Source: Candidatus Omnitrophota bacterium
Lineage (GTDB): Bacteria > Omnitrophota > Gorgyraeia > JABMRN01 > RBG-13-46-9
NCBI GenBank assembly: GCA_030605095.1
Contig: JAUWBJ010000006.1
Location: forward strand, 1-37,393
DNA length: 37,393 nucleotides
Direction of reading: 5' to 3'
Part shown: positions 20,847 to 29,539 of the stretch, one piece after another
How the letters are laid out: every line of letters starts with the position of its first letter
How positions within the stretch are numbered: position 1 is the first letter of the stretch
Notes under the pieces: model-generated
What the model saw: the letters and a program-made list of their open reading frames with translations, nothing else
Told to the model about the DNA's origin: nothing
Database searches by the model: none
Translations under genes and position numbers: made by a program

Positions 20847-21377
20847 ATGAATGAACAAATAATATGCGCCGGTTTTGGCGGACAGGGAATAATGCTTATG
20901 GGAAAGTTCCTCGCCGAAACGGGTATGAAAAATGGTTATAACGTTACGTGGCTTCCCTCATACGGCGCCGAAGTAAGAGGCGGGACAGCGCATTCCATGG
21001 TGCACATAAGCCGAGAAAGAATAGCATCCCCTGTAGTTTCAAAACCGACTACCTGCATAGTCATGAATAAGCCCTCTCTCGTTAAGTTTATAGATAGGAT
21101 AAAAAAAGGAGGGCTTTTAATAGTAAATACCTCTATGGTAAATAAGGTACCTGAGAAAAAGGGTATAAAGATAGTAAAACTCCCCTTAACCAAGCTCGCC
21201 TCAGAATTGGGTAATGTTAAAGTTGCGAATATGATTGCCGTAGGCGCGTTTATCGGCCTTAGAAAGACGCTTTCTTTAAAAGATATACAAGAAGCGTTAA
21301 ACAGGATATTGCCTTCGAAGAAGGATTTAATTTCTATTAATAAAAAAGCTATAGAATTGGGATACAAGTTGGTATGA
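20847..21377 (+). CDS. korC: 2-oxoacid:ferredoxin oxidoreductase, gamma subunit
   Basis: 176 residues starting IICAGFGGQGIMLMGKFLAETG, the POR/KOR gamma nucleotide-like glycine motif, with PSYGAEVRGGTAHSMVHIS. It completes the four-subunit D-A-B-C arrangement. The stop overlaps the gltX start (ATGA). Confidence 0.94.
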   Translation: MNEQIICAGFGGQGIMLMGKFLAETGMKNGYNVTWLPSYGAEVRGGTAHSMVHISRERIASPVVSKPTTCIVMNKPSLVKFIDRIKKGGLLIVNTSMVNKVPEKKGIKIVKLPLTKLASELGNVKVANMIAVGAFIGLRKTLSLKDIQEALNRILPSKKDLISINKKAIELGYKLV

Positions 21378-22657
21378 CAGAGGGTACTGTAAGGGTTCGC
21401 TTTGCGCCAAGCCCGACCGGCTACCTCCACTTAGGTAGCGCGAGAACTGCTTTATTCAACTGGCTCTACGCGCGGCACACAAACGGAAAACTCCTGTTGC
21501 GCATAGAGGATACGGATAAAACCCGCTCTAAAGGGGAATTTCTGGATGAAATTTTAGATGACCTTAAATGGCTCGGCATAGATTGGGATGAGAAACCTAT
21601 CTTCCAATCGGAGAGAACTTCCACATATAAAAAATACGCCTCTCAATTGCTTGATAAGCGCCTCGCCTATAAAGAAGGCGAGGCCATTATATTTAAAGTC
21701 CCGAAATCCCGAAATATAAAGGTAAGAGATATAGTGCACGGCGAAATAGATTTTAACACGGACGAAATAAAAGACCAGGTTTTGATAAAATCGGACGGAT
21801 TTCCGGCGTATAACTTTGCCTGTGTCGTAGATGATTATGAAATGGGCATAACGCACGTAATAAGAGGGGCCGACCACATATCGAATACGCCCAAGCAGCT
21901 CCTCTTCTATGAAGCCCTGGAGCTAAATCCGCCGAAGTTTGCCCACATGCCTCTAATGATGGGAAAGGACGGAGCCAAGCTTTCCAAGAGGCACGGTGCG
22001 GTTGCAGTAGTAGAATATAAAAAAGAAGGTTTTTTGCCGGAAGCATTATCAAACTATCTACTTTTACTCGGCTGGTCACCAGGCAAAGATAGAGAAATTA
22101 TAAGTTTAGAAGAGGTGATAAAATTATTTAAAATAGAAGACATCAGCAACGTTCAGGCAAGGTTTGATATTGATAAGTTAAGATGGATTAACGGGGAATG
22201 CATAAAGAATAAAGATACGAAAGTTTTGGCAAATCTGCTTAAAGATAAAGTAGCAAAGGATATTAATCAGAATTATCTGGAAAAGGTGGTGGATTTATAC
22301 AAGACGCGATTTCACACCTTAAGTGAGCTTACCACGCTTACCAAGGCATTTTTTATAGAGGACTTTCCGATAGATGTGGAGGCTCAGAAAAAACTTGAAA
22401 AATACCTGAAAGATAGCAAGACAAAAAAAGCATTTGCGGAATTTAAAACAGATTTAGAAAAACTTAAAAACTTTAATAAAGAAAATATAGAAAAAATTTG
22501 TAGAGATATAGCCAAGAAGTATAACATAAAACCTGCCGCGATAATACACCCTACGAGGGTTGCTATAAGCGGTAAAATCGTAGGAGCGGGCCTCTTCGAA
22601 ATGATGGAGCTTCTCGGTAAGAAAAAAGTCCTCGAGAGGCTCGAAAAGTATCTTTAG
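21374..22657 (+). CDS. gltX: Glutamyl-tRNA synthetase, shortened and probably non-discriminating
   Basis: 427 residues against about 470-490. Class I signatures: APSPTGYLHLGSARTALFNWL (HIGH) and GAKLSKRHGAVAV (KMSKS). Between the Rossmann halves the text runs from KRLAYKEGEAIIFKVP directly on, so the 40-odd residues that usually carry the CYC...C zinc/pincer segment and the PRYDGRCR helix are missing. The C-terminal anticodon-binding part is compact. tRNA-Gln(CTG) begins 3 bases after the stop. Together with the absence of a GlnRS gene in view, this suggests GluRS charges both tRNA-Glu and tRNA-Gln, with GatCAB amidation elsewhere (inference). Confidence 0.93.
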   Translation: MTEGTVRVRFAPSPTGYLHLGSARTALFNWLYARHTNGKLLLRIEDTDKTRSKGEFLDEILDDLKWLGIDWDEKPIFQSERTSTYKKYASQLLDKRLAYKEGEAIIFKVPKSRNIKVRDIVHGEIDFNTDEIKDQVLIKSDGFPAYNFACVVDDYEMGITHVIRGADHISNTPKQLLFYEALELNPPKFAHMPLMMGKDGAKLSKRHGAVAVVEYKKEGFLPEALSNYLLLLGWSPGKDREIISLEEVIKLFKIEDISNVQARFDIDKLRWINGECIKNKDTKVLANLLKDKVAKDINQNYLEKVVDLYKTRFHTLSELTTLTKAFFIEDFPIDVEAQKKLEKYLKDSKTKKAFAEFKTDLEKLKNFNKENIEKICRDIAKKYNIKPAAIIHPTRVAISGKIVGAGLFEMMELLGKKKVLERLEKYL

Positions 22658-22660
22658 TAT

Positions 22661-22731
22661 TGCCCGGTGGTGTAACGGTAGCACTGATGCCTCTGGAGCA
22701 TCTAGTCTTGGTTCGAATCCAAGCTGGGCAG
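22661..22731 (+). tRNA. tRNA-Gln (anticodon CTG)
   Basis: Acceptor TGCCCGG/CTGGGCA, anticodon stem GATGC/GCATC with loop CTCTGGA (anticodon CTG), T arm CTTGG-TTCGAAT-CCAAG, discriminator G. CCA is not encoded (GCTAT follows). It lies 3 bases after gltX, so it is probably processed from the same transcript. Confidence 0.92.
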
Positions 22732-22750
22732 CTATACCAGGAGTTGTAAA

Positions 22751-23134
22751 ATGGAAAATCAAGAACTGACTCCGGCGAAAAAGGTATTAATAGTTGAAGA
22801 CAGCGAAGGGCAACGAGAATTGTTTCGCGATGTCGTTAAAAAATGCGATTTTACGGCGTTGGAAGCGCAGGACGGCTTGAAAGCCCTGGAGCTAATAAGG
22901 GACAACAAAGATATAGATTTGATTATTCTGGATATAAAATTACCTAAAGTTCATGGATTTGAGATACTCATGCTATTAAAAAAGAAGGAGAATAAAATCC
23001 CTGTTATAATTTGCACCGCTTATAGCGGGTTAAAGGACGATATGTCTGTGGCATTTTATCCGAGAGTTATAGCCATGGATAAACCCGTTTCCCTGAAAGA
23101 GCTCGAGGAAAATATAAAAAAGATGATAAGTTAA
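22751..23134 (+). CDS. Single-domain response regulator (CheY-like receiver)
   Basis: 127 residues, one receiver domain and no output domain. Acidic pocket VEDSEG (Glu16/Asp17), phospho-acceptor Asp61 in IILDIKLPKVHG, switch Thr89 in ICTAYSG, and Lys111 in MDKPVS. AGGAG lies 8 bases before the ATG. It is sandwiched between two tRNA genes: tRNA-Gln ends 19 bases before it and a class II tRNA begins one base after its stop. No kinase is nearby, so the signal and target are unknown. Confidence 0.92.
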   Translation: MENQELTPAKKVLIVEDSEGQRELFRDVVKKCDFTALEAQDGLKALELIRDNKDIDLIILDIKLPKVHGFEILMLLKKKENKIPVIICTAYSGLKDDMSVAFYPRVIAMDKPVSLKELEENIKKMIS

Positions 23135-23135
23135 A

Positions 23136-23223
23136 GCGAGGATGGCGGTAATGTCAGACTCACAAGGTTGATGTCCTTGCGGACGAATAGTCTATGGGGG
23201 ATCGACTCCCCCTCCTCGCACCA
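23136..23223 (+). tRNA. Class II (leucine-type) tRNA-like gene with anticodon GAT
   Basis: Acceptor GCGAGGA/TCCTCGC, anticodon stem CAAGG/CCTTG with loop TTGATGT, variable arm GGAC-GAATA-GTCT, T stem GGGGG/CCCCC, discriminator A and encoded CCA. The body is like tRNA-Leu(GAG), but the anticodon reads GAT (Ile codons). D arm and loops are odd: C11/T24 mismatch, T at position 14, GT in place of G18-G19, and T loop ATCGACT lacking T54. All helices except D are perfect, yet the tertiary contacts are eroded, so it may be a decaying tRNA-Leu, a chimeric tRNA or a tRNA with a non-ribosomal job. Neighbouring tRNAs do not encode CCA. Confidence 0.7.
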
Positions 23224-23242: not shown

Positions 23243-23317
23243 GGCCCCATCGTCTAGCCTGGCCCAGGACATCAGATTCTCATTCTGAAAACTGGGGTTC
23301 GAATCCCCATGGGGCTG
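23243..23317 (+). tRNA. tRNA-Glu (anticodon CTC), integration target
   Basis: Acceptor GGCCCCA/TGGGGCT (with a G1-T72 wobble), D stem GTC/GAC, anticodon stem TCAGA/TCTGA with loop TTCTCAT (CTC), T arm TGGGG-TTCGAAT-CCCCA, discriminator G, no CCA. Its 3' half from 23269 is duplicated at 29427, so the integrated element restores a complete tRNA at its left end. Confidence 0.93.
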
Positions 23318-23381
23318 CTATTAACGTAACTATGCGTAACTACTATAGTTATATAGAGGTTACGCCTTTTTTGTTTCTAAA
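23269..23381 (+). repeat. attL: 113-bp direct repeat, left copy
   Basis: Identical in length to 29427-29539 with 4 mismatches. It spans 49 bases of tRNA-Glu, then the tRNA's terminator hairpin and T-run to TTTCTAAA. Confidence 0.92.
23334..23371 (+). terminator. Rho-independent terminator of tRNA-Glu
   Basis: GCGTAAC/GTTACGC closes a hairpin continued by TACTATA/TATAGAG around loop GTTA, followed by CTTTTTT. The stem is duplicated at 29492-29523, where the tail is CTCTTTT. Confidence 0.85.
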
Positions 23382-25617: not shown

Positions 25618-26802
25618 TTACCTCCAGCTAACATTTTTAAAACATTCGCGCACTTCGTTAGTACCTATCAGGTTATTTAAAATCCTATATGATTTGAAAT
25701 GATGGCGCATTTTCCCTGCGACTATAGCAACATGAATATTTAATTTTTTTGCCAAACTCTTAGCTGCTGCTGGAGATTTTAATCGAGATGCTGGACTTTT
25801 TATCCATACATCCTTAGGCACCAATATTTCTCTGGCTAATTGGTCAGCTTCAGTTTCAATCGGATCGTCAGAGACATCAGAATCTAGGTCATCGAAAATC
25901 ATATCTTCTTTACCTTCTAAATGGAGCGATATGTGTGCTAATTCATGCATTAGGCAAAACCAGAAACTATCAAGACGGTCATAACGCAGAGTTAAGCCTA
26001 TAATAGGACCATTTGAGGACATGATAGCAACACCATCTAAATAAGTTTTAGGTAAATGAGGCTCAACAATCAACAAAATACCATTTTTTTTCAAAAATTC
26101 ATAAGCCAAATACGGAGAATTTTCATGCGTACTTAGCTGTACTAAAGTATGCATGAATTTTTTAGTAATTGTGCCAGCCTTATAGCGTGTTTTATTTGCT
26201 ATGGCATTAGCTTGTGTCAGTATACGGGCGTTCCATGCCATTAGGGAATATTTATCCATTGTGCGAGCTGACCTAACATTATTTGTCATTCGATATAAGG
26301 CAGATATTCCCCACGAAGTTTCCACTGGTTTTAAGTAATTACGTATAGTTAATTCCGACGTAGCTTTTTTAACCTCTATCCATCCTCGCCTTATCATTTC
26401 TTTGAGGGGAAATCTGTTCCAGTCAAATTCACCGTTCACAGGGCGTGGGGCTACCAAGGATTCTAAAGGAATGCCAAAGGCAGCATTTAGAGCTCTGATC
26501 ATTGAAAGAGTTAAAGGTCTCTTTCCCGAAAGAACCTCCGAAACTTTACTTCTACTCCCAATATAAGGAATTAAATCTCTATGGGTTAAGCCTTGTTGAT
26601 CCATCCTGAATTTGATTGCGTCTATTGGGTTAGGCGGGCCAAAAGAAAACGATTTTTTTTCATAATCAGCAATAAGAAGCATTAAAAGATCAAGCTTGTG
26701 AGCTAGGGTAGTACCTTTTCTTGGATTTCGATCAAGCAACTCCTCTACGCGCTTCAAAGCGTTTTCATAGTCACCGCGTGTCTTAATAATTTTTACGTCC
26801 AT
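25618..26802 (-). CDS. higA: HigA-like antitoxin with XRE and ImmA/IrrE metallopeptidase domains
   Basis: 394 residues. An N-terminal HigA-type segment (LDLLMLLIADYEKKSF, about 38-53) precedes an XRE helix-turn-helix (about 58-115, GLTHRDLIPYIGSRSKVSEVLSGKRPLTLSMIRAL), a middle helical region, and a C-terminal ImmA/IrrE zinc-peptidase domain: HELAH at 286-290 and the Glu-rich ETEADQLAREILVP that supplies the third ligand. The toxin gene lies immediately upstream and AGGAGGTA precedes the ATG. It likely represses the operon through GGGAACAA operators. A fused peptidase suggests that the antitoxin can sense or process something rather than being simply degraded. Confidence 0.88.
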   Translation of the reverse strand: MDVKIIKTRGDYENALKRVEELLDRNPRKGTTLAHKLDLLMLLIADYEKKSFSFGPPNPIDAIKFRMDQQGLTHRDLIPYIGSRSKVSEVLSGKRPLTLSMIRALNAAFGIPLESLVAPRPVNGEFDWNRFPLKEMIRRGWIEVKKATSELTIRNYLKPVETSWGISALYRMTNNVRSARTMDKYSLMAWNARILTQANAIANKTRYKAGTITKKFMHTLVQLSTHENSPYLAYEFLKKNGILLIVEPHLPKTYLDGVAIMSSNGPIIGLTLRYDRLDSFWFCLMHELAHISLHLEGKEDMIFDDLDSDVSDDPIETEADQLAREILVPKDVWIKSPASRLKSPAAAKSLAKKLNIHVAIVAGKMRHHFKSYRILNNLIGTNEVRECFKNVSWR

Positions 26803-26811
26803 TGCTACCTC

Positions 26812-27096
26812 CTAATACTGCCACTTTGAATATTCAGCGTGGGTACCAATCCTTGTAACTAATACGGCTTTTTTTTGGTAGTAGACTTTTGTCTCAAGTC
26901 TATATCTGTTCCCCTTGATATTAAAAACAACTATTGCACTACCCAGATTACTCGCAGAACCGTATTTATCCCGTATCTTGTGGAAATTAGTCCAATTCGC
27001 ATCTTCAACTTCTTTAATCCATGAATCTATTGCTCCGCAAGAATCAGCATGGATGGATTTAAAGCTATGTAAACGACCAATACCGAATATTTTCAT
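26812..27096 (-). CDS. higB: HigB-family mRNA interferase toxin
   Basis: 94 residues. Family blocks: SIHADSCGAIDSWIKEVEDANW, FHKIRDKYGSASNLGSAIVVFNIKGNRYRLETKVYY, and the C-terminal RIGTHAEYSKW with the catalytic-type His and Tyr. HigB-type toxins cut mRNA on the ribosome. It is first in the operon (toxin before antitoxin, typical of higBA), with GGGGA about 8 bases upstream and the operator/promoter region beyond. Confidence 0.92.
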   Translation of the reverse strand: MKIFGIGRLHSFKSIHADSCGAIDSWIKEVEDANWTNFHKIRDKYGSASNLGSAIVVFNIKGNRYRLETKVYYQKKAVLVTRIGTHAEYSKWQY

Positions 27097-27637: not shown

Positions 27638-27828
27638 GGTTATTAAATCTTGAGCAAGTGGCGGAGGTTTTAAATAAGGCAGAGAAGACAGTGTATGCCT
27701 ATCTCGAAACCGGCATGTTGGATTGTGGTTTTAAGATAGGGCATGAATGGAGAGTAGACGAAAGAGACCTGTGGGGCTGGATAGAAAGGCAAAAACAAGC
27801 TAATGGCGTGGTTAAAGCGGCGAGATAA
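27634..27828 (+). CDS. Excisionase-like helix-turn-helix protein
   Basis: 64 residues: MRLLNLEQVAEVLNKAEKTVYAYLETGML...FKIGHEWRVDERDLWGWIERQ, a MerR-like winged helix of the excisionase family (HTH_17 type). The track's longer start (27463) runs through the miniprotein in another frame; ATG 27634 behind AGGAGGGG is clearly right. It overlaps the integrase by 26 bases and likely directs Int toward excision. Confidence 0.85.
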   Translation: MRLLNLEQVAEVLNKAEKTVYAYLETGMLDCGFKIGHEWRVDERDLWGWIERQKQANGVVKAAR

Positions 27829-28843
27829 CGGATATTACTATATCTATTGGTACGAGGGGCAGACCGGAGGCGGTAAGCCTAAGAAATGCATGAAGTCCCT
27901 AAAGACCAAGAATAGGAAAAGGGCAGAGCTTGTCTATAAGACATATGATGAGAAGATCTATTTTAGAAAACAAGGCCTACTTACTATGAATAAGATCGAA
28001 ATAGAGGCTTTTAAGCCACGCCTGGAATCATATCTGAACGCCCACTTTGATAATCAACATACCAGGAGAAAATATCTGGGACACTATAAGCTATTCGCTG
28101 ATTTCATGAGTAAAAAATATAACTATGTAAAATATATACATGAGGTAAAAGACACATATTTTGTAGAATTTAAAATCTGTGAGCAAGAAAATAAGAAAAG
28201 TCCACACTCGATAAATGGGGAAGTGCGCTCTCTTCACAAAATCTTCAAGATAGCGAAAGAGCTTAATCACATAAATGAAAATCCAGCAGACAACATGTCT
28301 ATGATCAGAGTTAAAAAGCCGCGGGTAGAAGCGTATAGCCAGGACGAGATACGCCTAATGTTTAAATATTCTAAGAAAGATCCCATGCTCGATACAATGA
28401 TTCTTTTATTGCTTCAGACCGGCTCGAGAAAAGAAGAAGTAAGCAACTTCAAATGGAATGACTTCAATCGCGATAATAACACTCTAAAAGTATCCCGGAA
28501 GGATGATTGGCATCCTAAAAGAGATAAGGAGAGAATTCTGAGGTTATCAGATAAACTAACGCGCATGCTAAGCAAGCTAAAGCGAGAAAGTGACTACATC
28601 TTCACTCAAAAAGCTGGCAGAAATAAAGGCAAAAAGTTCTCTGGGAGCCAACTATATAGGTATGTCATTTATAATTTCTTAAAGAAGCTAGCCATAAAAG
28701 GACATCTGCATAAATTTAGAGACACCTACGCAAGCTATTCTATCGCCTGTGGAGTAGATATAGCAAAGGTTCAGCATAGGCTAGGGCACGAGAGTTTAAA
28801 AGAGACAGATAGATATACTCTATGGCTATTAATGAGCCAATAG
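27803..28843 (+). CDS. int: Tyrosine recombinase / integrase
   Basis: 346 residues. An N-terminal arm-binding-like segment (RRDNGYYYIYWYEGQTGGGKPKKCMKSL), a SAM-like core-binding domain (about 70-165), then the catalytic domain with Arg209 (GSRKEEV), His303-x-x-Arg306 (HKFRDTYASYS), His329 (LGHESLKETDRY) and nucleophile Tyr338. It cuts in the tRNA-Glu 3' region. The gene sits at the right end of the element, 583 bases from attR. Confidence 0.94.
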   Translation: MAWLKRRDNGYYYIYWYEGQTGGGKPKKCMKSLKTKNRKRAELVYKTYDEKIYFRKQGLLTMNKIEIEAFKPRLESYLNAHFDNQHTRRKYLGHYKLFADFMSKKYNYVKYIHEVKDTYFVEFKICEQENKKSPHSINGEVRSLHKIFKIAKELNHINENPADNMSMIRVKKPRVEAYSQDEIRLMFKYSKKDPMLDTMILLLLQTGSRKEEVSNFKWNDFNRDNNTLKVSRKDDWHPKRDKERILRLSDKLTRMLSKLKRESDYIFTQKAGRNKGKKFSGSQLYRYVIYNFLKKLAIKGHLHKFRDTYASYSIACGVDIAKVQHRLGHESLKETDRYTLWLLMSQ

Positions 28844-29426: not shown

Positions 29427-29539
29427 ACATCAGATTCTCATTCTGAAAACTGGGGTTCGAATCCCCATGGGGCTGCTTTTAACATAACTAGGCGTAACTA
29501 CTATAGTTATATAGAGGTTACGCCTCTTTTGTTTCTAAA
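29427..29539 (+). repeat. attR: 113-bp direct repeat, right copy
   Basis: Contains the displaced 3' half of tRNA-Glu (from ACATCAGATTC) and the original terminator hairpin GCGTAAC/GTTACGC (29492-29523) with tail CTCTTTT. Differs from attL at 4 positions, all after the tRNA end. Confidence 0.92.

Follow-up and report, generated by a model that had tools for sequence, protein, structure and literature searches.

A gene at positions 23136-23223 of the 37,393-nucleotide stretch of Candidatus Omnitrophota DNA analyzed here (the window) raises the question of which amino acid, if any, its product could carry, as the body of a tRNA-Leu is joined in it to the anticodon GAT. ARAGORN called this gene, GCGAGGATGGCGGTAATGTCAGACTCACAAGGTTGATGTCCTTGCGGACGAATAGTCTATGGGGGATCGACTCCCCCTCCTCGCACCA, as an 88 nt tRNA-Ile(gat), one of three tRNAs in the window along with Gln(CTG) and Glu(CTC). 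When the region was scanned alone, the Rfam tRNA model scored it at 33.6 bits against a cut-off of 29, and a whole-genome Rfam scan detected it with the same score (E = 1.7e-5), while a fast scan of the whole window missed it. We refer to it below as tRNA(GAT).

The fold of tRNA(GAT) is intact in its main helices, with 7/7 pairs in the acceptor stem, 5/5 in the anticodon stem, 4/4 in the variable stem (one of them G-U) and 5/5 in the T stem. Its D stem carries a C11-T24 mismatch, and the loops have T at positions 14 and 19 and A at position 54. These calls and pair counts agree with the initial annotation, which had described a class II tRNA with a GAT anticodon, perfect acceptor, anticodon, variable and T helices, and the loss of A14, G19, T54 and one D-stem pair. 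The class II fold, A73 and long variable arm are those of a functional tRNA-Leu, in which the anticodon would be NAG or NAA rather than GAT. A tRNA-Ile(GAT) would have A37, A38 and a class I body; here positions 37 and 38 are G and T, and the variable region is 16 nt long with a 4-pair stem. Folding energy was dropped as a discriminator, as single-sequence values were similar (-36.5 kcal/mol for tRNA(GAT) vs -36.2 to -41.4 kcal/mol for normal Leu tRNAs) and one normal Leu gene also failed to give a cloverleaf.

Table 1. Positions of tRNA(GAT), its parts and the neighbouring genes in the window.
Feature	Position	Strand	Evidence
Eroded positional orthologue of tRNA-Leu(GAG), anticodon GAT, CCA encoded	23136..23223	+	ARAGORN, Rfam, G001 synteny/identity
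Acceptor stem 5' strand GCGAGGA, 7/7 with 23213-23219 (TCCTCGC)	23136..23142	+	Sequence, alignment
D arm defects: C11 (23146) vs T24 (23160), T14 (23149), T19 (23154)	23146..23160	+	Alignment
Anticodon loop TTGATGT; anticodon GAT 23170-23172; G37, T38	23168..23174	+	ARAGORN, alignment
Long variable arm, stem GGAC/GTCT	23180..23195	+	Sequence, arm annotation
T arm GGGGG-ATCGACT-CCCCC; T54 -> A (23201)	23196..23212	+	Alignment
Discriminator A73 + CCA	23220-23223	+	Sequence, alignment
gltX, glutamyl-tRNA synthetase, upstream gene of conserved locus	21374..22657	+	Pfam PF00749, PF19269
tRNA-Gln(CTG), syntenic neighbour	22661..22732	+	ARAGORN
Single-domain response regulator, between tRNA-Gln and eroded tRNA	22751..23134	+	Pfam PF00072, E 1.4e-20
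tRNA-Glu(CTC), syntenic neighbour at which the downstream element is integrated	23243..23318	+	ARAGORN
IrrE-like HTH gene, in integrated element	25618-26802		
HigB-like toxin gene, in integrated element	26812-27096		
Phage-type integrase, in integrated element	27803-28843		

The origin of the gene can be read from its locus. The draft of the genome studied (G000) comprises 109 contigs with a total of 1.37 Mb and is 92% complete, and we compared it with one other genome of the same genus (G001), which corresponds to Candidatus Omnitrophota bacterium isolate bin17 (CP070780.1) and in which locus L155 bears a matching arrangement of gltX and tRNA genes. The gene order in G001 is gltX - Gln(CTG) - Leu(GAG) - Glu(CTC), with a normal tRNA-Leu(GAG) to which tRNA(GAT) is 84% identical over its full length; the two gltX genes are 87% identical. 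The Rfam score of the G001 tRNA is 47.7, compared with 33.6 for tRNA(GAT). Linkage of Gln, Leu(GAG) and Glu tRNAs recurs in another genus of the family (G005, L294) and in a more distant Omnitrophota genome (L161), and in G004 (L148) Leu(GAG) adjoins Glu(CTC). Because it occupies the same locus, shares 84% identity and sits in a linkage found in other genomes, tRNA(GAT) is the positional orthologue of tRNA-Leu(GAG), so that its proposed derivation from a Leu-type tRNA is borne out by both synteny and sequence. The response-regulator gene that sits within the tRNA cluster is missing at the corresponding place in G001, where the Gln and Leu tRNAs lie 11 bases apart, and no homologue of it was found in the other stretches examined. 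G001 has a short GIY-YIG-like ORF, named from sequence motifs only, after its Leu gene.

We aligned tRNA(GAT) with six Leu(GAG) relatives, among which 46 columns are invariant. It departs from these at five columns (14, 19, 36, 38 and 54), at each of which all six relatives are identical; the relatives' own private changes mainly affect stems and the variable arm. Thus tRNA(GAT) shares with bacterial tRNA-Leu(GAG), a class II tRNA, its locus, acceptor stem, A73, variable arm and CCA, and differs from it in its anticodon, in the loop TTGATGT and in the loss of A14, G19, T54 and the 11-24 pair. Two points of the initial annotation need correction here. The anticodon loop had been described as one change away from a Leu loop TTGAGGT, whereas the actual orthologues have TTGAGGG, so that two bases of TTGATGT are changed (36 and 38), and the encoded CCA, which had been singled out, is present in every aligned Leu(GAG) relative. 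As in a pseudogene, orthology by locus and sequence to a functional-looking tRNA gene is combined with uncompensated loss of universally conserved positions, and among the 33 tRNAs of G000 and 38 of G001 called by ARAGORN, tRNA(GAT) is the only one with several uncompensated losses. We consider it probable, though far from assured, that this gene is the original tRNA-Leu(GAG) of the genome and is losing its function in place.

The lost bases bear directly on charging. LeuRS does not read the anticodon (PMC9976931), as had been assumed in the initial annotation, and no identity switch is therefore expected from the new anticodon. Leucylation of E. coli tRNA-Leu involves A73, A15-U48, G18G19 and A20a, and G18:U55, G19-C56 and U54:A58 also matter, while U8:A14 is crucial for the Aquifex LeuRS (PMC9976931). 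tRNA(GAT) keeps A73, A15-U48, A20a and G18:U55 but lacks U8:A14, G19-C56 and U54:A58 as a result of T14, T19 and A54. Bacterial isoleucine identity involves A37 and A38 in addition to the anticodon (PMC9976931). Judging from these bases, we infer that the RNA is poorly leucylated or not leucylated at all, and that it is not isoleucylated. Insertion of leucine at isoleucine codons is disfavored because the lost bases are reported to matter for leucylation, and isoleucylation is disfavored because of G37, U38 and the class II shape. We found no extra synthetase of the Ile/Leu/Val type in the genome.

It had been proposed that tRNA(GAT) is a missense tRNA, charged by LeuRS and placing leucine at the isoleucine codons AUU and AUC, as suggested for the nematode nev-tRNAs. 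The retained class II Leu body with A73 and a long variable arm, the GAT anticodon and the indifference of LeuRS to the anticodon all suit this proposal, yet the three contacts that were lost are among those required for leucylation in E. coli and Aquifex (PMC9976931). Such decoding would also come at a high cost because AUU and AUC are common in G000 (49.6 per 1000 codons), and the RNA is unique to one genome. U36 beside G37, where A37 is absent, makes a poor context for reading AUN codons, which would further weaken missense decoding. Together these points leave the proposal very improbable, and the case is not evidence for an altered genetic code. The nev-tRNA-Ile(UAU) and nev-tRNA-Gly(CCC) do share with tRNA(GAT) a class II body, a long variable arm and a non-Leu anticodon, and they are conserved in nematodes, processed and leucylated in vitro, with no detectable mistranslation in vivo (PMC4300185). 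The comparison is weak, as tRNA(GAT) occurs in a single genome and lacks contacts used by LeuRS.

Other systems resemble tRNA(GAT) in part. In the hybrid-identity tRNA-ProX of Streptomyces, too, the amino acid implied by the body is not that of the anticodon, but tRNA-ProX is accompanied by a synthetase variant, ProRSx (PMC11415595), which has no counterpart among Ile/Leu/Val-type enzymes here. Anticodon shift, or alloacceptor remolding, is described in eukaryotic nuclear and mitochondrial tRNAs, where an anticodon change at a conserved locus alters the nominal amino acid (PMC3923123, PMC4783518). That feature is shared by tRNA(GAT), in which the shift is joined by the loss of core bases.

We then considered what the tRNA inventory says about isoleucine and leucine decoding. 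No normal tRNA-Ile(GAT) is present in the G000 or G001 assemblies, and this absence was rejected as a sign that tRNA(GAT) reads isoleucine codons. It is uninformative because no 16S rRNA was found in the G000 assembly, a run of N interrupts the 16S gene of G001, and a motif match typical of tRNA-Ile(GAT) occurs in many other genomes of the class. As to tRNA-Leu(GAG), which the inventory suggested in the initial annotation was also to cover, no other copy occurs in the contigs of the incomplete G000 assembly. Since several tRNAs of G001 are also absent from this 92% complete assembly, the absence of Leu(GAG) is weak evidence, and a second, functional tRNA-Leu(GAG) might lie outside the draft, with tRNA(GAT) a decaying copy left behind. 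We regard such redundancy, which concerns the cause of the decay and not a different nature of the RNA, as improbable, given that the assembly holds no second copy and that the related G001 chromosome has a single Leu(GAG). A working decoder would nonetheless suit the codon usage, which is unchanged: CUU and CUC make up 42% of Leu codons in G000 vs 39% in G001, and nothing points to their avoidance. CmoB, an enzyme for the U34 modification that widens U34 reading and helps with CUY-type codons, was not found in G000 or G001. CUY decoding would then rest either on tRNA-Leu(UAG), which would read the whole box, or on a Leu(GAG) absent from the draft; otherwise the loss is very recent.

If tRNA(GAT) is indeed a tRNA-Leu(GAG) that is losing function, the events may have run as follows. 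Replacement of G36 by T would have destroyed the reading of CUY codons, and the changes at A14, G19, T54 and the 11-24 pair would have removed contacts reportedly needed by LeuRS. Given G37, U38 and its class II shape, the RNA is also unlikely to be a substrate for IleRS. It is probably still transcribed together with its neighbors, and would be expected to remain poorly charged or uncharged, with little or no role in translation. The reading of CUU and CUC would fall to tRNA-Leu(UAG) or to a Leu(GAG) gene absent from the assembly. On this reading the locus offers a snapshot of a bacterium losing the tRNA for heavily used codons. It also calls for caution, as automatic annotation would list here a tRNA-Ile, which the gene very probably does not encode.

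The distribution of changes along tRNA(GAT) is uneven. None of its 14 differences from the G001 orthologue, some of which are ordinary changes at variable positions, touches the CCA or the stems of the acceptor, anticodon and T arms; 0/38 helix and CCA columns are changed vs 14/51 of the others (Fisher p = 0.0002), although helix avoidance is not significant when restricted to otherwise invariant sites (p = 0.09). Fourfold sites of three neighboring genes differ between G000 and G001 at 86/300 positions (about 29%), so that the rate of change in the columns outside the three main helices and CCA is close to neutral. Those helices account for about 42% of the changes in the other diverged tRNAs of the two genomes. 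The normal-looking tRNA-Asp, however, has 0/11 changes in helices, so the bias is not unique to tRNA(GAT), in which one D-stem pair is broken. Uniform neutral decay since the species split does not predict zero helix changes. Stem changes are expected of long-standing decay and not of recent decay, and both the intact helices and the unchanged use of CUY codons would be compatible with decay if the loss is recent or if a second copy is missing. The five changes at invariant columns are transversions without exception, compared with 64 transitions and 22 transversions at nearby fourfold sites; we made no use of this excess, as the other diverged G000/G001 tRNAs are likewise transversion-rich.

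The intact helices and CCA would also fit a structured element kept without decoding, either as a mark for RNase P or 3' processing or as an aminoacyl donor outside the ribosome. In a processing role, for example, the acceptor/T-stem stack and CCA could serve to trim the response-regulator message upstream and the tRNA-Glu downstream, and the position of the gene would fit: one base separates its start from the response-regulator stop codon, as noted in the initial annotation, and its end lies 19 bases before tRNA-Glu. We find a structural role of this kind doubtful, as the RNA occurs in one genome only, tRNA-Asp is likewise without helix changes, and the avoidance of helices loses significance at invariant sites. 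Equally unlikely is selection for a cloverleaf that lacks the usual elbow, in which leucine decoding and charging have been given up and the helices and CCA are kept for processing or another non-decoding use. D- and T-loop bases are also lost in the staphylococcal cell-wall tRNA-Gly, a likeness to tRNA(GAT), whose body differs in being of the Leu type. Though possible, a retained role outside decoding is unsupported; if the RNA proved to be expressed and retained, it would represent a bacterial tRNA gene turned to non-decoding use.

Conservation in relatives, which had been suggested as a check, was not observed. Among 384 genomes of the class, a motif for class II GAT tRNAs gave a tRNA-like match in this genome only, and the same-genus orthologue has GAG. 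Because the motif requires GGG ahead of the T loop as well as an anticodon loop with TTGATG, divergent cases could escape it. Five other matches of this motif do not resemble tRNA arms. A looser motif for class II GAT tRNAs was discarded as it matched nearly every genome. The restriction to a single draft assembly also raises the matter of an assembly or sequencing artefact, which we consider scarcely credible: the differences are spread over 88 bases, are mostly transversions and leave the main helices intact, and the adjacent genes and tRNAs are clean. A candidate pattern of repeated Leu(GAG) loss in the family was dropped when its motif (GG before TTC in the T arm) was found to miss a normal Leu(GAG) that ARAGORN detects in G005. 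Searches of IMG/VR with the 3' half of the tRNA and for gltX of this lineage returned no copy of the locus.

Downstream of the tRNA cluster, a 113-base direct repeat (23269-23381 and 29427-29539, about 96% identical) includes the 3' part of tRNA-Glu and flanks the integrated element listed in Table 1.

Several other tRNAs of these genomes have features of their own. tRNA-Phe (L023:1501-1576) and tRNA-Cys (L028:1501-1574) have TGC in the T loop (G at 55) and, by eye, A18 in the D loop, as if both partners of the 18-55 contact had changed together; the altered T loop of tRNA-Phe is found in both genomes (the sequence is identical in G001), and the altered tRNA-Cys in G000. tRNAs of G000 and G001 with the same anticodon form two groups, many being 97-100% identical and others 61-80%, the latter including Ser(GCT), Ser(TGA), Leu(CAG), Leu(TAG), Ala(GGC), Val(TAC) and Gln(CTG). 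Leu(CAG) of G000 has A37 instead of G37. Finally, the tRNA-Tyr of a Thr-Tyr-Gly-Thr cluster is missed by ARAGORN and apparently contains a group I intron, which Rfam RF00028 scores at 96.7 bits (L040:4652-4879, G000 contig C78). A similar sequence was read by eye in G001 (L141, about 780-1055), while in G005 and G006 of the same family ARAGORN called tRNA-Tyr directly.
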